From assembly GCF_900111835.1 (NCBI RefSeq), contig NZ_FOJP01000013.1, positions 1 through 64,000 of the forward strand: 64,000 nucleotides of DNA, written 5' to 3'. Source of the DNA: Metapseudomonas otitidis. GTDB lineage: Bacteria; Pseudomonadota; Gammaproteobacteria; Pseudomonadales; Pseudomonadaceae. Every line of letters starts with the position of its first letter. Within the stretch, counting starts at the first letter, position 1. Shown here one piece after another: positions 41,262 through 49,771 of this stretch. The notes beneath the pieces were generated by a model, which had not been told where the DNA came from, did no database searches, and was given only the letters and a program-made list of their open reading frames with translations. Both the position numbers and the translations under genes were made by a program.

Positions 41262-42785
41262 ATGACCGTGATCAAGCAGGACGACCTGATTCAGAGCGTC
41301 GCCGACGCCCTGCAGTTCATCTCCTATTACCACCCCGTCGATTTCATCCAGGCCATGCACGAGGCCTACCTGCGCGAAGAGTCGCCCGCCGCGCGCGACT
41401 CCATGGCGCAGATCCTGATCAACTCGCGCATGTGCGCCACCGGCCACCGCCCCATCTGCCAGGACACCGGCATCGTCACCGTGTTCGTCCGCGTGGGCAT
41501 GGACGTGCGCTGGGACGGCGCCACCATGAGCGTCGACGACATGATCAACGAGGGCGTGCGCCGCGCCTACAACCTGCCGGAGAACGTCCTGCGCGCCTCC
41601 ATCCTGGCCGACCCGGCGGGTGCCCGTAAGAACACCAAGGACAACACCCCGGCGGTGATCCACTACTCCATCGTCCCCGGCAACACCGTGGAAGTGGACG
41701 TGGCCGCCAAGGGCGGTGGCTCCGAGAACAAGTCGAAGATGGCCATGCTCAACCCGTCCGACTCCATCGTCGACTGGGTGCTCAAGACCGTCCCGACCAT
41801 GGGTGCTGGCTGGTGCCCGCCGGGCATGCTCGGCATCGGCATCGGCGGCACCGCCGAGAAGGCCGCGGTGATGGCGAAGGAAGTCCTGATGGACCCGATC
41901 GACATCCACGAACTGAAGGCCCGTGGCCCGCAGAACAAGATCGAGGAAATGCGCCTCGAACTGTTCGAGAAGGTCAACCAGCTGGGCATCGGCGCCCAGG
42001 GCCTGGGTGGCCTGACCACCGTCCTCGACGTGAAGATCATGGACTACCCGACCCACGCTGCCTCGCTGCCGGTGTGCATGATCCCCAACTGCGCCGCCAC
42101 CCGTCACGCCCACTTCGTGCTCGACGGTTCCGGCCCGGCCGCCCTGGAGGCCCCGCCGCTGGACGCCTACCCGGAAATCGTCTGGGAAGCCGGCCCGAGC
42201 GCCCGCCGCGTCGACCTCGACAGCATCACCCCCGAGGACGTGCAGAGCTGGGAGCCGGGCGAGACCCTGCTGCTCAACGGCAAGATGCTCACCGGCCGCG
42301 ACGCCGCCCACAAGCGCATGGTCGACATGCTCAACAAGGGCGAAGAGCTGCCGGTGGACCTCAAGGGCCGCTTCATCTACTACGTCGGCCCGGTCGATCC
42401 GGTCGGTGACGAAGTGGTCGGCCCGGCAGGCCCCACCACCGCCACCCGCATGGACAAGTTCACCCGCCAGATCCTGGAAAGCACCGGCCTGCTGGGCATG
42501 ATCGGCAAGTCCGAGCGTGGCCCCATCGCCATCGAAGCGATCAAGGACAACAAGGCCGTGTACCTGATGGCCGTCGGCGGCGCTGCCTACCTGGTGGCCC
42601 AGGCGATCAAGAAGTCCAAGGTCCTGGCCTTCGCCGAACTCGGGATGGAAGCCATCTACGAATTCGACGTGAAGGACATGCCGGTCACCGTCGCCGTCGA
42701 CACCAACGGCGAGTCGGTGCACATCACCGGCCCGGCGATCTGGAACAAGAAGATCGCCGAAAGCCTCGCGGTGGAAGTGAAGTAA
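41262..42785 (+). CDS. fumA: Fumarate hydratase, class I (iron-sulfur)
   Basis: Interconverts fumarate and malate in the TCA cycle with an oxygen-sensitive [4Fe-4S] cluster. 507 residues from the ATG at 41262 (MTVIKQDDLIQSVADALQFI), with AGAGGAG 7 bp upstream. The alpha domain has the first cluster cysteine in CQDTGIVTVFV and the others in GAGWCPPGMLG and MIPNCAATRHAHFVLDG. The beta domain follows (GPAGPTTATRMDKFTRQIL, MIGKSERGP). Corresponds to PA4333. Terminator at 42801-42829. Confidence 0.96.
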   Translation: MTVIKQDDLIQSVADALQFISYYHPVDFIQAMHEAYLREESPAARDSMAQILINSRMCATGHRPICQDTGIVTVFVRVGMDVRWDGATMSVDDMINEGVRRAYNLPENVLRASILADPAGARKNTKDNTPAVIHYSIVPGNTVEVDVAAKGGGSENKSKMAMLNPSDSIVDWVLKTVPTMGAGWCPPGMLGIGIGGTAEKAAVMAKEVLMDPIDIHELKARGPQNKIEEMRLELFEKVNQLGIGAQGLGGLTTVLDVKIMDYPTHAASLPVCMIPNCAATRHAHFVLDGSGPAALEAPPLDAYPEIVWEAGPSARRVDLDSITPEDVQSWEPGETLLLNGKMLTGRDAAHKRMVDMLNKGEELPVDLKGRFIYYVGPVDPVGDEVVGPAGPTTATRMDKFTRQILESTGLLGMIGKSERGPIAIEAIKDNKAVYLMAVGGAAYLVAQAIKKSKVLAFAELGMEAIYEFDVKDMPVTVAVDTNGESVHITGPAIWNKKIAESLAVEVK

Positions 42786-42800
42786 GCCACACCGCAATTG

Positions 42801-42829
42801 AAAAGCCCGGCCTCGCGCCGGGCTTTTTC
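42801..42829 (+). terminator. Rho-independent terminator of the fumarase gene
   Basis: AAAAGCCCGGC-CTCGC-GCCGGGCTTTTT, 15 bp after the stop codon. Confidence 0.93.
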
Positions 42830-43198
42830 TTGGCGCTCTTCCGGTAACGCGCTGCTGATCAGTTCAGCGCCAAGCGGATTCCAGACGCCAACCTACTGCC
42901 CACCAAATCCCCAAAACGGGACCCACATCCTGATATGACCAACCGGTCAATTTCAGGAGTGTGAGCCCATGCACAGTTGTACTCCGACCAGTCGAACGGA
43001 CGTGCCGCTTTCCTTATTCTCTCGCCCGCTTGTCGGGTCTCCCCCAGGCAGGTCGCCATAGGAAACCAACACGTCGCATGGATGCGCAGCAGTCTGTCGA
43101 GCTTTCTCTATGCCCTGGACCTTTGCCCTCTCCCTGCGCCTTCCGGCCGGCACGCGGCTGCCCGTAGCCGATTGCCCGAGCATCCGGGAGCCCCGCCG
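42830..43198. other. Regulatory leader of the gspD-M66-gspC cassette
   Basis: A 369-bp spacer without a firm gene. It contains the palindrome at 42936-42949. It also holds two tiny frames. One at 42969-43061 (30 codons) has AGGAG 10 bp upstream. The other at 43110-43202 has 30 codons, and its TGA overlaps the gspD ATG as ATGA. They could be leader peptides but may be chance. The gspD reading frame itself is open back to 42977, although that part is not protein-like. Confidence 0.4.
42936..42949. promoter_or_regulatory. Palindromic operator-like site (TetR-type appearance)
   Basis: TGACC-AACC-GGTCA is a 5-bp inverted repeat with a 4-bp centre, close to operators bound by many TetR-family repressors (GACC...GGTC). 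It lies 250 bp upstream of gspD. No TetR gene is adjacent, so the assignment is tentative. Confidence 0.35.
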
Positions 43199-45523
43199 AT
43201 GAGCCTGTGCCTGCCCCGTTGCCTGGCCCGCCTCGCCTGGGCCTGCATGTTGCTGTGCCCGCTGCTGTGGGCAGAGCCGGCCAGCCAGGACGGCGAGGAG
43301 CGCTGGACCATCAACATGCGCGACGCCGACATCCGCGACTTCACCGAGCAGGTCGCCAGCATCAGTGGCCAGACCCTGGTGCTCGATCCCCGGGTCAAGG
43401 GCCAGGTCACCGTCATCTCCGAATCGCCGCTGACCCTCAGCGAGGTCTACCAGCTGTTCCTCTCGGTGATGAGCACCCACGGCTACAGCGTGGTCACCCA
43501 GGGCAACCAGGCGCGCATCGTGCCCGATGTGGAGGGCCGCAGCGTGGCCAACAGCCCCGTCGGCAGCGGCCCGGAAACCCTCGAGACGCGCCTGCTGCAG
43601 GTGCAGCAGACACCGGTCAACGAACTGCTCCCGCTGATCCGCCCGCTGGTGCCGCAGAACGGTCACCTGGCGGCCATCCCCTCCAGCAACTCGCTGATCG
43701 TCAGTGACAAGCGCGCCAACATCGAACGGCTGATCGCCCTGATCGCCCAGGTGGACAGCGCCGGAGCCAACGACAGCGTGTTCTACGACCTCAAGCACGC
43801 CTGGGCCCGCGACGTCGCCGCGATGCTGCAGGAGAGCCTGCGGCGCGGGCAGCCGGCCGGCAACGGCAACGCCCAGGTGATCGCCGACCCACGCACCAAC
43901 CGCCTGCTGCTGCTCGGCCCGCCCGAGGCCCGCGAGCGCCTGCTGAAGATGGCCCGCCAGTTGGACACCCAGCCTGTGCGCTCGGCCAACACCCGGGTCG
44001 TGCGCCTGCGCCATGGCGACGCCAAGGACCTGGCCAAGACCCTCAGCGACCTCTCCGAGCAACTGCGCGGCACCGCCTCGCCCACCACCACCCAGGCCCC
44101 GGTGCTGATCCGCGCCGACGAGGGGATCAACGCCCTCATCCTGATGGCCGAGCCGGACATGGTGGCGCAGCTGGAAGACCTGGTGCACCAGCTCGACGTA
44201 CCCCGCGCCCAGGTGCTGGTGGAGGCCGCCATCGTCGAGATGTCCGGCGACGTCAGCGAAGCCCTCGGCGTGCAGTGGGCCATCGACGGGCGCTCCGACA
44301 GCGGCCCCATCGGCGGCAGCAACTTCAGCAACACCGGGCTCTCGGTGGGCACCCTGCTCGGCGCCATCGACGCCAAGACCCCGGTCAGCCTGCCCGACGG
44401 CGCCATCGTCGGCATCGGCAACAAGAACTTCGGTGCGCTGATCACCGCCCTCTCCGCCAACGGCAACAGCAACCTGCTTTCCACCCCCAGCCTGCTGACC
44501 CTGGACAACCAGAAGGCCGAGATCCTCGTGGGGCAGAACGTGCCCTTCCAGACCGGCTCCTACACCACCGACGCCGCCGGGGCCAACAACCCCTTCACCA
44601 CCATCGAGCGCAAGGATGTCGGCGTCACCCTCAAGGTCACCCCGCACATCAACGAAGGCGGCACCCTGCGCCTGGTGATCGAGCAGGAGATCTCCTCCAT
44701 CGCCCCCAGCACCGGCGCCGCCTCCCGCGCGGTGGACCTGGTCACCAACAAACGCATGATCAAGAGCACCGTACTGGCCGACAACGGCCAGGTGATCGTG
44801 CTCGGCGGCCTGATCCAGGACGACGTCACCCGCAGCGAGAGCAAGGTACCGCTGCTGGGCGACATGCCCCTGGTGGGCGGCCTGTTCCGCTCCAGCAAGG
44901 ACGTCAACGTCAAGCGCAACCTGATGGTCTTCCTGCGGCCCAGCGTGGTCCGCGACGGCAACCGCCTGGCCGACCTCAGCCAGGAGAAGTACCTCGACCT
45001 GCGGCAGCAGGCCGCCGGGCCAAACGCCCAGCGCAGCCTGCCCCAGGAGCCGGCGCAGCTGTTCAAGTCCACCCGCTCGGCCGCCCCGGTCGCGACGGCA
45101 CCGGCACCGGCACCAACACCGGCACCTGCGCCCAAGCCGGCCCCGGCCCCGGCCCAACCCTACGCCGCCCCGGCTGAAACGCCCCTGCAGCGCAGCGCCC
45201 AACCCGTGGCAGCCACCACGCCAGCGACACAACCCCCGGCGCCCGCGGCTCCGGCACAGCCTGCCGCCGCTCCGGCGCCAGCCCCGGCCGCCCCGCGGCG
45301 CTACAGCATCAACCTGATCGAAGGCAGCAGCGAGCAGTACATGCGCGCACTGATGGCCCGCCACCCCGGCGCGCCCCTGCGCATCCAGCATTCGCAGCGC
45401 AACGGCCAGGACTGGTACCGCATGTTCTACGGCGAGTACTCCCAGGCCGACCTGGCCGAGCGCGCCCTGCGCGACCTGCCGGCCACACTGCCCAGCCATC
45501 GGGGACGGGTCATGGCGCTCTAG
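43199..45523 (+). CDS. gspD: Type II secretion secretin GspD with C-terminal SPOR domain
   Basis: Outer-membrane pore subunit of a type II secretion system. 774 residues from the ATG at 43199 (GGGAG upstream), with a signal peptide at about 1-25. The N0 domain is at about 33-105 (WTINMRDADIRDFTEQVASI) and N1-N3 follow (RLLQVQQTPVNELLPLIRPL, VVRLRHGDAKDLAKTL). The secretin channel domain spans about 350-600 with its signature (GQVIVLGGLIQDDVTRSESKVPLLGDMP). After it, instead of the pilotin-binding S-domain, comes a Pro/Ala-rich linker (about 620-700) and a SPOR domain (about 700-770: RYSINLIEGSSEQYMRALMA, WYRMFYGEYSQADLAERA). SPOR domains bind peptidoglycan lacking stem peptides. No other core gsp/xcp gene is in the window. 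Confidence 0.92.
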   Translation: MSLCLPRCLARLAWACMLLCPLLWAEPASQDGEERWTINMRDADIRDFTEQVASISGQTLVLDPRVKGQVTVISESPLTLSEVYQLFLSVMSTHGYSVVTQGNQARIVPDVEGRSVANSPVGSGPETLETRLLQVQQTPVNELLPLIRPLVPQNGHLAAIPSSNSLIVSDKRANIERLIALIAQVDSAGANDSVFYDLKHAWARDVAAMLQESLRRGQPAGNGNAQVIADPRTNRLLLLGPPEARERLLKMARQLDTQPVRSANTRVVRLRHGDAKDLAKTLSDLSEQLRGTASPTTTQAPVLIRADEGINALILMAEPDMVAQLEDLVHQLDVPRAQVLVEAAIVEMSGDVSEALGVQWAIDGRSDSGPIGGSNFSNTGLSVGTLLGAIDAKTPVSLPDGAIVGIGNKNFGALITALSANGNSNLLSTPSLLTLDNQKAEILVGQNVPFQTGSYTTDAAGANNPFTTIERKDVGVTLKVTPHINEGGTLRLVIEQEISSIAPSTGAASRAVDLVTNKRMIKSTVLADNGQVIVLGGLIQDDVTRSESKVPLLGDMPLVGGLFRSSKDVNVKRNLMVFLRPSVVRDGNRLADLSQEKYLDLRQQAAGPNAQRSLPQEPAQLFKSTRSAAPVATAPAPAPTPAPAPKPAPAPAQPYAAPAETPLQRSAQPVAATTPATQPPAPAAPAQPAAAPAPAPAAPRRYSINLIEGSSEQYMRALMARHPGAPLRIQHSQRNGQDWYRMFYGEYSQADLAERALRDLPATLPSHRGRVMAL

Positions 45524-45577
45524 CGCTCGCCCCGGCTCACAACAATCACAACAAAGCCGAACTGAAAGCGAGGGGAC

Positions 45578-48394
45578 ATGTTTCGCAAGCTCGTACTGAT
45601 CTACGGACTGCTCAGCCTGGCCGGTTGCCTGGACCTGGGCGGCGGCGGGGGTGGCGGAGGCTCCAGCAACCCCGCCCCACCGGCCACCAGCACCCCGGAG
45701 ACGCCATCCCAGCCGCCCGCCGGTGGTGGCACCCGCCCCGATCCGGAAACGCCCGAGACCCCGCAGCCACCGGTCACGCCCCCGGTCACGCCGCCCACCG
45801 AGCCGCCGGTCACCCAACCGGAGAACCGCTTCCCCGAGCCCAGTGCCGCCGTGGTAGATGAGGTCGGAGCCCTCGGTTTCTACGACCAGACCGCCGACGG
45901 CCAGCCGCGCCCGGTGCGCAACGACCTCACCGGCACCCTCGCGGCCATGCTGCAGTTCGTGCAGAGCCACTCGGTGGACCCGCAAGGCAACGAAGCGAAG
46001 AACATGCCGCGCCTGACCAGCGAGCGCGAAGCCCTGCTGCTGGTAACCCCCGACCCGGACCAGCCCCTGCCCAGGTCCCTGCGCGTGCAGGTGCTGTTGG
46101 ACGGCGCCCTCAAGGGCGACCTGACGCTGCGCCACCCCGACGAGCTCTACCGTGCCGACCGCACCGGCAGCGACGCCCGCCCCGACGTGGTGTATTCGCG
46201 CCGCGCCTGGTCCGCCGTGCTGCCCTGGGACTGGGTGGTGCCCGGCATGAGCCTGCAGCTCAGCGACGACCAGGGCCGCAGCGGCCAGCGCGGCGCCGAG
46301 GCCTTCGACTTCGCCCCGCCTGCCGAACTGCTGGTCCAGGCCATCCGCATCGGCATGCTCACCCCCGAGGTCCCGGGCGGCCAGCACTGGTTCAACACCC
46401 AGCCGGCCCAGGCCGCCACCGACTACTTCCAGACCGTGCCCATCGCCCGCATGGTGGCCAGCCGGTACGAGGACGTGCTACTGCGCAAGGTGATGGTGGC
46501 CAACGGCACGATCTACGACGCCGACCAGGGCCAGGTCAGCGCCACCACCGGCGACGTGTACAGCGGCGACATGCGCGAGAACACCGCCAAGTCCACCTTC
46601 AGCACCGGCATCAACCTGGCCAACTGGGGCATCACCAGCGCCGGCATGGCCAGCCAGGAGCAGCCGCAGCTGACCAACTCGGCGGTCATCCACCACGCCC
46701 GCGGCCTGTACAGCAACGGCACCGTCAACCACGGCCTCAGCGGCGGCAACGGCATCCTCACCCTGATCGACTCGGTGGGGAACGAATTCAGCCACGAGAT
46801 CGGCCACCACTACGGCCTGGGCCACTACCCGGGGCAGAGTGGCGACAACTACTTCTGGTCGGGTCACCACCACGACAGCGGCTGGGGCTACATCGCCTAC
46901 CGCAAGCGCATGCGCGCCAACCTGCACTGGACCCGCGCCAAGACCGGCGGCCTCAACGGCATGCCGATCTACGCCGATGCCTACAGCTTCGCCACCGACG
47001 CCATGGCCGGCGGTAACTTCGCCAGCGGCCTGTCGCGCTACACCCACTACACCGGCTACAGCACGCGGCAGAAGATCCAGCCGGCGCTGAACCGCGCCGT
47101 CTGGGCGCCCGACTCCCCCACCGGTTACCGCAAGTGGGACGCCACCAGCCGCAAGATGGAGGTGTTCCAGCCGAAGACGCCGACCTCCCGCACCGTCTGG
47201 TACAACAGCGCCGACGGCACCTACCGCAAGCCGCGCCTGTTCGGCGTCCCGGTCATCACCCTGCTCGGCGGCTACGACCCGGAGACCGGCGCCGCCGTGC
47301 TCTACCCGGCCCTGCGTGGCAACTGGGGCCAGGTCTACGACCTGCCGCCGCCCGACGCCGCAGCCACCAGCCGGCAATGCTGGCTGGAGGTCAGCTTCGC
47401 CAACGACAGGACCCAGCGCATCGCCGTCGCCCCCACGCGCCTGGGCAGCAACGCCAACAAGCTGCACGTCAACCTGGCCCAGGCCGAACAGCCCGTCGCC
47501 GCGGCCCTGCAATGCCGCGACACGGCCGGCGCCGCCACCACCGAGCTGGCCAGCGTGGTCATTCCCCAGGGCCTGCCCGCCCTGCCGCCGCCGGTGATCG
47601 TCGGTCGCGAAGCCGGCTTCCAGGCCCTGCGCCAGGAAGAACTGCCCCAGCTCGACGCCGCCCTCACGGCCCTCGCCGGCCAGCTCGTGCCCACGCTCAA
47701 GGGCAACGCACGGGTGCTCTTCGACAGCTACAGCGACCAGCCCGACGGCCTCTCGGCCACGGCCCAGCAGGTCCGCCAACGCCTGCTGGACCAACAGGCC
47801 CGCGCCCTGCGCCTGAATCGCTGGCTCGACGCCTACGGCGCCCAGCTGGCCGGCAGCGCCGACGCCGGCCAGGCCCTGGATGCCCTGCTGACCACCCTGC
47901 AGTTCGACAGCCGCACCCTGCTGCCACCGCGCCAGGGCTTCACCCTAGGCAACGGCAACTGCGTGCGGGTGGAACAGGTGGACGGCGCCTGGCAGCCCTA
48001 CGTGCTGGCCAAGGCCCAGTGCACCGGCTCGGCGGAGGAACAGTGGCGGGTGGACGCCAGCGGTCGCATCCGCAGCGTCGCCCAGCCCACCCAATGTCTT
48101 ACCGCCAGCAACGACGTGGGCCTGAGCGCCTGCGACAGCCAGCAGGACGCCCAGTCCTGGGACTTCTCCGCACTGCCACAGCTGAAGGCCGGCAGCCGCT
48201 GCCTGGACCTCTCCGGTGGCTACCTCACCAACGGACGCGGCAAGCTGATCCTCTACGGCTGCACCGGCGGCGCCAACCAGAAATGGTACGGCCCCACCCT
48301 CAGCGACAACGGCCTGCTGCCGCTGCTGCAAAGCCGCAACATCGCCGCCTTCACCGCCTATGCCGAGCAACGCGCCCAAGCCGTGGCCCCCTGA
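45578..48394 (+). CDS. M66 (StcE/TagA-like) zinc metalloprotease lipoprotein with ricin-like domain
   Basis: 938 residues with a lipobox LSLAGC (lipidated Cys17; +2 is Leu, not Asp, so not an inner-membrane retention signal). A poly-Gly and Pro/Thr-rich spacer covers about 21-88. An N-terminal beta-rich region is followed by the M66 catalytic domain. The zinc site is HEIGHHYGLGH at 406-416 (His406, Glu407, His410, His416), preceded by GNEFS exactly as in StcE-family mucinases. The C-terminal 120 residues (about 788-910) form a ricin-type beta-trefoil (QCLTASNDVGLSACDSQQDA, SRCLDLSGGYLTNGRGKLIL), probably carbohydrate-binding. Known relatives are secreted by type II systems and cut mucin-type glycoproteins. 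Flanked by gspD and gspC, it is the likely substrate (inference). Confidence 0.9.
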   Translation: MFRKLVLIYGLLSLAGCLDLGGGGGGGGSSNPAPPATSTPETPSQPPAGGGTRPDPETPETPQPPVTPPVTPPTEPPVTQPENRFPEPSAAVVDEVGALGFYDQTADGQPRPVRNDLTGTLAAMLQFVQSHSVDPQGNEAKNMPRLTSEREALLLVTPDPDQPLPRSLRVQVLLDGALKGDLTLRHPDELYRADRTGSDARPDVVYSRRAWSAVLPWDWVVPGMSLQLSDDQGRSGQRGAEAFDFAPPAELLVQAIRIGMLTPEVPGGQHWFNTQPAQAATDYFQTVPIARMVASRYEDVLLRKVMVANGTIYDADQGQVSATTGDVYSGDMRENTAKSTFSTGINLANWGITSAGMASQEQPQLTNSAVIHHARGLYSNGTVNHGLSGGNGILTLIDSVGNEFSHEIGHHYGLGHYPGQSGDNYFWSGHHHDSGWGYIAYRKRMRANLHWTRAKTGGLNGMPIYADAYSFATDAMAGGNFASGLSRYTHYTGYSTRQKIQPALNRAVWAPDSPTGYRKWDATSRKMEVFQPKTPTSRTVWYNSADGTYRKPRLFGVPVITLLGGYDPETGAAVLYPALRGNWGQVYDLPPPDAAATSRQCWLEVSFANDRTQRIAVAPTRLGSNANKLHVNLAQAEQPVAAALQCRDTAGAATTELASVVIPQGLPALPPPVIVGREAGFQALRQEELPQLDAALTALAGQLVPTLKGNARVLFDSYSDQPDGLSATAQQVRQRLLDQQARALRLNRWLDAYGAQLAGSADAGQALDALLTTLQFDSRTLLPPRQGFTLGNGNCVRVEQVDGAWQPYVLAKAQCTGSAEEQWRVDASGRIRSVAQPTQCLTASNDVGLSACDSQQDAQSWDFSALPQLKAGSRCLDLSGGYLTNGRGKLILYGCTGGANQKWYGPTLSDNGLLPLLQSRNIAAFTAYAEQRAQAVAP

Positions 48395-48902
48395 GGCCCA
48401 CCGGCGCCGGGCCCCATGGGGCCCGGCGCTGCTGCTGGCACTGCTGCCCCTGCCGCTTGCCGCAGTGGAGCTGCCCACCGCGCTGCTGGCCCCACCCCGG
48501 CTGCACCTGCAGCCGCTGGGGGCACTGCCCGGCCTCAGCGCATGGCGCCTGCACGGGGTGTTCAGTCGGGGGGATGGCCAGGGCAGCGCCACCCTCAGCC
48601 TTGAAGACGGGCCGCCCTTCAGCGTCCGGACCGGCGACCGCCTGCCCGGCGGCGTCGAGGTGCTGGCGATCCAGCGCGACCGCCTGCTGCTGCGGCGCGG
48701 CCGTGAGCTCGGCGAACTGGTGATCCTGGGCCGCGCACCGGGCGCGGGCGACAGCGCCGTCGCCTCCATGGCCAGCGAGGCCCCCGGCAACCTGCCCAGC
48801 TTGCCGCCCGACTGCGAAGCCTTCGCCCTCGGAGGCGTCCCCCTGGACGAACTGCAGGCCCTGGGCGGATGCCCGTCGCTGGCGGACGAGAGCGGGCGTT
48901 AG
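48360..48902 (+). CDS. gspC: Short GspC-like type II secretion coupling protein
   Basis: 180 residues: a basic cytoplasmic start, one membrane span (about 21-38, PALLLALLPLPLAAVEL), then a GspC homology-region domain (about 50-125). That domain has the pattern LSAWRLHGVFS, GSATLSLEDGPPFSVRTGDRLPGGVEVLAIQRDRLLLRRGRELGELVI, which fits the HR fold of GspC/XcpP that contacts the secretin N0 domain. It lacks the PDZ or coiled-coil end of longer GspC proteins and instead has a Pro-rich tail with two cysteines. The ATG overlaps the protease gene by 35 bp, so the two are coupled. It is paired with the secretin in the same cassette, like the orphan XphA-XqhA pair of P. aeruginosa. Confidence 0.75.
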   Translation: MPSNAPKPWPPEAHRRRAPWGPALLLALLPLPLAAVELPTALLAPPRLHLQPLGALPGLSAWRLHGVFSRGDGQGSATLSLEDGPPFSVRTGDRLPGGVEVLAIQRDRLLLRRGRELGELVILGRAPGAGDSAVASMASEAPGNLPSLPPDCEAFALGGVPLDELQALGGCPSLADESGR

Positions 48903-49771
48903 CTCCTCACGCGCTCGAACTGCTCCGGCCAGTCCCGCCGGGTGAACACCTGCCCCTCCCGCCGCACCCGGCGCACCTCCTCCAGGTCCAGCTCGGCCAG
49001 CAGCCAGCGACTGCCGTCCGGGCACAGCTCGGGGCTCTCGGCGATCACGCCGTTGCTCGGCATGCCGTAGTCCGGCGGCACATAGAGGCCGGCGCGGCCG
49101 ATGTTCTCGTCCAGCGCCGGGGACCAGGGCGCCAGCCCCACGGTGGGCGACTGCAGCACGGCGATCTGGCTTTCCAGGGCGCGGGCCTGGGCGCCGATGC
49201 GCACGCGGTGGTAGCCGGCCTCGGTGTCGGTGCAGCTGGGGGCGAGGATCAGGTCGGCGCCGCCCTCGGCCAGGGTCCGCGCCAGCAGGGGGAACTCGTT
49301 GTCGTAGCAGATGAGGATGCCCAGGCGCCCGAACGCCGTGTCGAACACCCGCAGCCCCTGCCCCGCCGCGATGTGCCAGTGCTCGCGCTCGAAGCGGGTC
49401 ATCATCAGCTTGTCCTGGTGGCCCAGCTCGCCGTCCGGGCCGTAGAACCAGGCGCGGTTGCGGTACTGGCCGTCGGCATCGCGCACCGCCACCGAACCGG
49501 GCTGCAGGTAGACGCCGAGGCGCCGCGCCAGGTCCGCGCACAGCGCCCGCCAGGCAGGCAGCAGCGGCTGGATGCCGTCGATGGAGGCCTGCAGGTCGCC
49601 GCGCTGGGCCGGCGGCAGTTGCCCGCTCAGTACCAGGCCGGCGTACTCCGGCAGCAGCAACAGCTCCGCGCCCTCGCCGGCAGCGGCCTCGCACAGGGTG
49701 GTGAGGTGCTCGGCGTAGGCGTCCCAGGTGTCGAAGAGGTCGATGTGGTATTGGCAGGCGGCGATCTTCAC
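48899..49771 (-). CDS. Nitrilase-superfamily carbon-nitrogen hydrolase
   Basis: 290 residues starting at GTG 49771 ([16 protein letters not shown]). The catalytic triad is visible: Glu42 (LLPEYAGL), Lys121 ([10 protein letters not shown]) and Cys155 ([10 protein letters not shown]). Such enzymes hydrolyse amides or nitriles. The substrate cannot be told. The start overlaps the stop of the upstream GNAT gene as GTGA, and the longer open frame to 49969 lies inside that gene. Fusion or pairing of a GNAT domain with a nitrilase domain recurs in bacteria, so the two probably act on the same metabolite. The 3' end overlaps the convergent gspC gene by 4 bp. Confidence 0.92.

Follow-up and report, generated by a model that had tools for sequence, protein, structure and literature searches.

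A secretin, an M66 lipoprotein and an HR-domain protein at one locus

The window analyzed here is a 64-kb stretch of DNA from Metapseudomonas otitidis, the start of contig C23 of a 6.3-Mb genome (G000). It holds three rightward genes that encode, in order, a type II secretion system (T2SS) secretin GspD with a C-terminal SPOR domain, an M66 metalloprotease lipoprotein and a protein with a GspC-type homology region (HR), and the last two genes overlap (Table 1). A sequence-only reading of the same DNA had proposed a private pore, its cargo and a GspC coupler that borrow an existing machine. The three genes proved to be real, and the secretin gene does lie away from any gspE, as a gspE family search gave no match on C23. 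The locus is not a complete T2SS, since gspE-M are absent and no GspC in the strict sense is encoded beside gspD. It has the form of an orphan pair, gspD plus a GspC-like gene without gspE-M, here also without GspC in the strict sense.

The window secretin comprises an N0 domain, three Secretin_N stretches, the Secretin domain, a Pro/Ala-rich linker and, last, the SPOR domain. It scores 525 bits against the GspD profile TIGR02517 (cut-off 351) and is 63.7% identical to the Xcp GspD of its own genome. An AlphaFold model of the secretin alone was unusable (mean predicted local distance difference test score, pLDDT, 37.9). The Pfam SPOR scan covered the window secretin, that of locus L109 and six further secretins, one of them a fragment (at 149 kb of the own contig C11), with the C11 secretin at 97 kb left out. 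No SPOR domain was found by it in the own Xcp and C38 secretins, the C11 149-kb fragment or the secretin of the Pseudomonas fluvialis metZ locus. A single clade of SPOR secretins was not rejected (approximately unbiased test, p-AU 0.50), which is no proof of a clade. A search of 5.8 billion proteins with the tail only gave 13 matches, all sharing one Pfam architecture, and the eight that are named all come from Pseudomonas or Pseudomonadaceae. Secretin copies in metagenome-assembled genomes (MAGs) were overlooked by this search, which is therefore not exhaustive. The window secretin shares with LspD of Legionella, also of a T2SS, a SPOR domain of the kind that binds peptidoglycan, but this domain is N-terminal in LspD and C-terminal in the window secretin. 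The available parts of two papers place the SPOR domain of LspD before N0 and term it the sole known case in a T2SS (PMC9239104, PMC6617341). In the open papers on secretins with SPOR, as far as their accessible text goes, this N-terminal domain of LspD was the only one found (PMC9239104, PMC6617341).

The M66 gene starts 54 nt past gspD. Its product has a lipobox (LAGC), a Gly/Pro-rich linker, the motif HExxHxxGxxH as read from the sequence, and a TagA domain, and it ends in a lectin tail of the ricin type; its peptidase profile score is 165 bits (cut-off 20.6). By sequence, its best relative of solved structure is StcE, and the protein is a probable mucin-cutting surface protease.

The third protein has an HR domain by its fold. 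Model matching related it, among the matches listed, to PDB 4wfw, 2y4y and 2lc4, which are HR folds without a PDZ domain, and an unrelated fold, which would have spoken against the sequence-only reading, was thereby ruled out. The T2SSC profile remains below threshold (21.4 against a cut-off of 27), and a profile search of PDB sequences with this protein gave no match up to E 10. The closest named homologue is from M. otitidis (94%). At the N-terminus, the unbroken hydrophobic stretch is shorter than in eight GspCs, by a measure in which a proline ends the stretch. All 16 of 16 aligned relatives have an Ala-Val site there that resembles a signal cleavage site. This N-terminus reads like a cleavable signal peptide. 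GspB/OutB and PilP, which are HR partners of secretin N0, likewise have the HR fold without a PDZ domain. GspB homologues are said, in the accessible part of one paper, to carry a transmembrane segment (PMC9239104), and PDB titles describe PilP as a lipoprotein, whereas the window protein has the HR domain but shows neither of these features clearly. By title and abstract, nothing similar was found in the literature on soluble GspC homology regions, mostly open papers.

Table 1. Features of the three-gene locus in window coordinates
Feature	Position	Strand	Basis and remarks
Terminator-like hairpin and T run, after the fumarase gene	42802..42828	+	Read from sequence by eye
Palindrome TGACCAACCGGTCA	42936..42949	.	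Sequence and alignment; partial conservation in relatives
CRP/Vfr-like palindrome TGTGA-N6-GCACA	42960..42975	+	Sequence scan
gspD, secretin with C-terminal SPOR, 774 aa	43199..45523	+	Start inferred; likeliest start ATG 43199
Secretin N0 domain, expected HR docking site	43310..43513	+	PF21305
Secretin SPOR domain	45293..45484	+	PF05036, 27.1 bits, cut-off 21
M66 metalloprotease lipoprotein, 938 aa	45578..48394	+	Open reading frame, profile, StcE match
Peptidase_M66 domain	46184..47089	+	Profile
Ricin-type lectin domain of M66 lipoprotein	47951..48286	+	PF00652
HR-domain protein, 180 aa	48360..48902	+	Gene overlaps M66 gene by 35 nt
Signal-peptide-like N-terminus of HR protein, residues 1-35, invariant Ala-Val at inferred cleavage site	48360..48464	+	Alignments; heuristic only
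HR core, residues 62-121	48543..48722	+	Model match
Two-Cys tail of HR protein, C-x6-GVP-x2-EL-x3-G-x-CP	48813..48875	+	Positions invariant in 16/16 aligned relatives

The locus is flanked by a fumarase-like gene on one side and a leftward nitrilase-like gene on the other, both named by eye. Rfam gave no match over positions 42600-49200.

Linkage of the HR gene to M66 in relatives

A scan of named-species genomes gave 31 M66 loci. Neighborhoods were read as open reading frames at the five Pseudomonas-type loci and at eight of the 26 others; the remainder rest on tblastn, several with short flanks. The HR gene is next to M66 in all five Pseudomonas-type loci, and neither an HR nor a secretin match was found by tblastn at the 26 loci of Acinetobacter, Psychrobacter and Diaphorobacter, some of which have short flanks. 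The M66 reading frames of L050, L053, L056 and L057 (Acinetobacter, Psychrobacter) match in two or three pieces and may be interrupted genes or assembly errors. Within the genus of the window, M66 of the window type is present in 4 of 18 genomes (the own one included), each time in the order secretin, M66, HR. Alignment of the HR protein against 99 genomes of the family, ten of them from this genus, gave four matches, strong in the own genome and G007 and at 31 bits in two others; the frequency beyond the genus rests on this alignment and on the named-species scan.

Counted once each, eight genomes carry M66-HR: G000, G007, G008 and G017 of the window's genus, P. fluvialis (G110) and the MAG species G107-G109. 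The three MAG species are closely related, so that the eight genomes may represent three independent lineages. Locus L028 and the G007 contig, equal in length, were counted as one, and proteins P0001-P0007 and P0021-P0034, whose context is not known, stand outside the eight. HR directly follows M66 in every one of the eight. A SPOR-tailed GspD is also present in all of them, adjacent to M66-HR in five (in one case with an in-frame TAG) and unlinked in three, and the sequence-only reading, which would have failed had the three genes rarely been neighbors, holds on this point. The unlinked cases are G107-G109, where no secretin was found beside M66-HR (the contig ends 3-6 kb upstream in G107 and G108, and 9.7 kb are covered in G109). 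Each of these has a secretin elsewhere, which aligns to residue 767 of 774 at 62-63% and carries a Pfam SPOR domain, and the idea that these MAGs have M66-HR without any SPOR secretin was thus overturned.

The order in P. fluvialis is a 169-aa membrane GspC, SPOR gspD, M66 and HR. In P. fluvialis and the three MAG species (four of the eight genomes), the SPOR secretin thus comes with a membrane-anchored GspC as well as the HR protein. HR always follows M66 and in half of the genomes coexists with an ordinary GspC; it is associated with M66 and not with the secretin. The name GspC given to it by the sequence-only reading is therefore right as to the HR domain and falls short as to the role: the HR protein is not the sole GspC of its secretin encoded beside gspD, and it is not simply the GspC of the SPOR secretin, since that secretin has a membrane GspC too in those four genomes.

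A second cargo stands behind the same type of secretin. In G107-G109, SPOR gspD is followed by genes for a 225-aa BamI, a 598-aa Mep72 metzincin and a 176-aa membrane-anchored GspC. On L109, on which the profiles were run, BamI scores 254.5 bits and Mep72 776.8 bits (NCBIfam) and GspC 58.7 bits (T2SSC); L107 and L108 encode copies that match those of L109 at 92-96% identity. Two other identifications were discarded. The 225-aa protein had been considered CpaB-like, on which the PDB search was uninformative, and the 598-aa protein M72/CpaA-like, where CpaA is a weak PDB match (E 0.0028); the NCBIfam profiles name both. As M66 does in the window, BamI-Mep72 provides a protease cargo behind a SPOR secretin, of a protease family other than M66. 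A metalloprotease between pore and coupler therefore occurs with two protease families, and the arrangement that the sequence-only reading had pointed out, a substrate gene between those of the pore and the coupler, is real and recurs in three related MAG species. According to the accessible parts of one paper, an xcpP-Z mutant of P. aeruginosa lacks Mep72 in its secretome, BamI binds Mep72, Vfr controls it, and BamI-Mep72 is described as a bicistronic operon (PMC4334185). In the own genome, two divergent bamI-mep72-like pairs lie at about 128-134 kb of C11 (L070:3817-9699) and are the source of two weak M66 matches; they are 53-56% (Mep72) and 40-44% (BamI) identical to the L109 copies.

Candidate gspE-M body and competing readings

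In the own genome, 4 of 13 gspE matches are over the cut-off. There are six N0 matches, one of which (31.6 bits) is possibly PilQ. T2SSC matches number five, and the lowest score among them is that of the window HR. Both gspC and gspD lie near three of the four gspE genes. The fourth is on contig C38 (about 60.6-68.2 kb) and is followed by gspF to gspM, genes which, apart from gspE, were named from order and similarity and not from profiles. A search of C38:6001-77000 turned up neither gspC nor gspD, and family searches show one pair, at the far end of C38. The same headless cluster occurs in G017 and G008, with no gspC or gspD in the fetched flanks. In P. fluvialis, gspE-M lie head to head with gspC-gspD(SPOR)-M66-HR, and in G108 gspG-M are followed by M66-HR. 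The M66-HR genes of G108 had at first been placed behind an Xcp cluster; this was overturned, as the gsp genes before them are nearer to the C38 cluster. A GspK+L+M tree of six clusters (L071, L069 and clusters of which only E/F were fetched were left out) sets the P. fluvialis, G108 and C38 clusters apart from three Xcp clusters at 100/100, and GspM alone groups the same three at 99/99. We take the C38 gspE-M cluster as the likeliest body for the window head, a competing head on the same contig being the reservation. Because the gsp clusters linked to M66-HR group with the headless C38 cluster, the borrowing of Xcp is no likelier than a dedicated system in two parts.

With about even confidence, we read the locus as the outer-membrane head and cargo of a second, M66-dedicated T2SS, whose gspE-M body is encoded elsewhere and whose HR protein is a soluble, M66-specific adaptor. 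M66 would cross the inner membrane by Sec, be lipidated and then reach the cell surface by way of the SPOR-tailed secretin; there, glycoproteins would be the target of its protease domain and lectin tail. The SPOR tail would tether the pore to the peptidoglycan layer. Coupled to M66 in translation, the HR protein would probably be freed into the periplasm after cleavage of its signal peptide; its core may dock on the secretin N0 and its two-Cys tail may bind M66, so that a single cargo is handed to the pore. A tentative variant, plausible but short of probable, is a modular head-plus-cargo cassette in which M66 or BamI-Mep72 stands beside the SPOR secretin and apart from the body, with M66 bringing a soluble HR "passport" that would compete with GspC at N0 or replace it.

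The original proposal that a private pore and coupler borrow the pseudopilus and ATPase of Xcp or of another complete system, in the manner of XphA-XqhA, with HR as a minimal GspC with an uncleaved anchor, appears rather doubtful. It fits the lack of a gspE match on C23, the three complete T2SS elsewhere in the genome, the 63.7% identity of the window secretin to the own Xcp GspD and the absence of another GspC for the SPOR secretin in the window's genus. Related SPOR loci, moreover, carry Mep72 as their cargo, and this protease is an Xcp substrate in P. aeruginosa, as far as the accessible text of the source goes (PMC4334185). P. fluvialis also has a second gspC-gspD pair, without SPOR, beside metZ/purF-like genes (L113:9262-11620; named by eye), and GspK and GspL queries found no match in the fetched 20 kb; heads may therefore share bodies. 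However, the genome has a gspE-M cluster without a head, which groups with the M66-HR-linked clusters, the HR gene follows M66 and its product coexists with a membrane GspC in half of the genomes, and the HR N-terminus looks cleavable. The proposal stands as to a head without gspE and loses ground as to the borrowed machine, the M66-HR-linked gsp clusters being closest to the own headless cluster in the GspK+L+M tree.

Several observations weigh against a dedicated system with the C38 body. GspK and GspL alone join C38 to G108 (98/99 and 99/99) and leave the placement of P. fluvialis open, trees of GspE and of GspF give it no place either, and the C38 GspE is closer to that of the own Xcp (85%) than to that of P. 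fluvialis (76%). Among G107-G109, a C38-type body is documented in G108 only. The window's genus has no membrane GspC for the SPOR secretin, and the mean hydropathy of the HR N-terminus, taken by a heuristic, overlaps that of true GspCs. The SPOR gspD of P. fluvialis (L032/L114) is interrupted in frame by a single TAG a short way past N0. Finally, three genomes have an orphan gspC-gspD pair at a distance of 58-60 kb from their C38-type cluster, and this pair is a possible competing head. The TAG may be a sequencing error or mark a pseudogene, and the pair is found at C38 0.3-2.9 kb of the own genome (L067) and in L118, L125 and L129, with a GspD 38-39% identical to the window secretin and no gspE nearby in the fetched DNA.

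If that pair were the head which the C38 cluster serves, the window secretin would be an accessory pore and HR a GspB-like or pilotin-like factor for the assembly of that pore, not a cargo adaptor. This is decidedly unlikely. C38-like clusters directly touch M66-HR or the SPOR head in two relatives, the HR gene adjoins M66 even where the secretin is unlinked, and GspB homologues are said, in the part of the paper available, to have a transmembrane segment (PMC9239104). A decaying remnant, in which the M66 lipoprotein reaches the surface without the SPOR secretin and the genes for HR and for this pore merely persist, is very improbable. The TAG in P. fluvialis, the lack of a membrane GspC in the window's genus and the 26 M66 loci of Acinetobacter, Psychrobacter and Diaphorobacter without secretin or HR match (some with short flanks) would suit it; yet none of the three window genes has an interrupted frame, and ratios of nonsynonymous to synonymous substitution (dN/dS) are 0.28 for gspD, 0.32 for M66 and 0.52 for HR against G017, and 0.36 for M66 and 0.47 for HR against G008 (gspD not computed).

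Known systems, regulation and divergence

SslE of Escherichia coli is M60-like. With its T2SS-beta it resembles the window locus as a surface metalloprotease-like lipoprotein encoded with its own type II system, but the whole gsp cluster is in one place there, no HR protein is tied to the cargo and the protease family is another. The accessible part of the source gives SslE as a surface lipoprotein substrate encoded with its T2SS-beta (PMC3707838), and the title of a reference names yghJ-pppA-yghG-gspCDEFGHIJKLM. StcE, a T2SS cargo, is an M66 protease like that of the window, whereas the window locus differs from StcE/Etp by the absence of gspE-M, the SPOR secretin, the M66-linked HR protein and an M66 that is a lipoprotein with a ricin-type tail. 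The stcE gene presumably adjoins etpC. In E. coli O157, StcE is the M66 cargo of the Etp T2SS and is arrested in an etpC mutant, as the available part of one paper has it (PMC12962677). XphA-XqhA of P. aeruginosa, described in the accessible text as an orphan GspC-GspD pair within a hybrid Xcp system (PMC6567927), is like the window locus in gene arrangement, a GspD and a GspC-like protein being encoded away from the other gsp genes. The window locus differs by a cargo gene in between, by a last protein without a clear anchor and, putatively, by the C-terminal SPOR of its secretin.

As far as the sources were available, orphan C-D pairs (PMC6567927), M66 T2SS cargo (PMC12962677) and surface lipoproteins encoded with a T2SS (PMC3707838) are known. 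The novelty lies in a secretin whose SPOR is C-terminal, in an HR protein that is tied to M66 and has no clear anchor, and in the proposed separation of head from body; by title and abstract, in mostly open papers, nothing similar was found on M66 with Pseudomonas and secretin or on orphan GspC/GspD. The HR gene shares an overlap with just one cargo gene and stays behind it when the secretin is elsewhere, and in other species the same secretin type flanks an unrelated protease; nature has in this way set up an experiment on how substrates are chosen. In Pseudomonas genomes, the heads (C-D) and bodies (E-M) of type II systems are scattered and apparently reassorted. If the proposal is true, the T2SS would gain a new class of component in the form of a soluble HR adaptor that serves one cargo.

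The CRP/Vfr-like palindrome upstream of gspD is the sole site with at most one mismatch in 64 kb, a count that is not significant (0.39 expected). Sites of the same quality lie upstream of the inferred start of SPOR gspD in G017, G008 and G107-G109, and P. fluvialis has only sites with two mismatches; the scan left out L065. The site is put forward because its position is conserved, not because of the count. Of the three genes, HR diverges fastest, with a dS of 0.67-0.76 compared with 0.26-0.32 for gspD and M66 (against L063 and L064), and this high dS may reflect an exchange of the 3' end.

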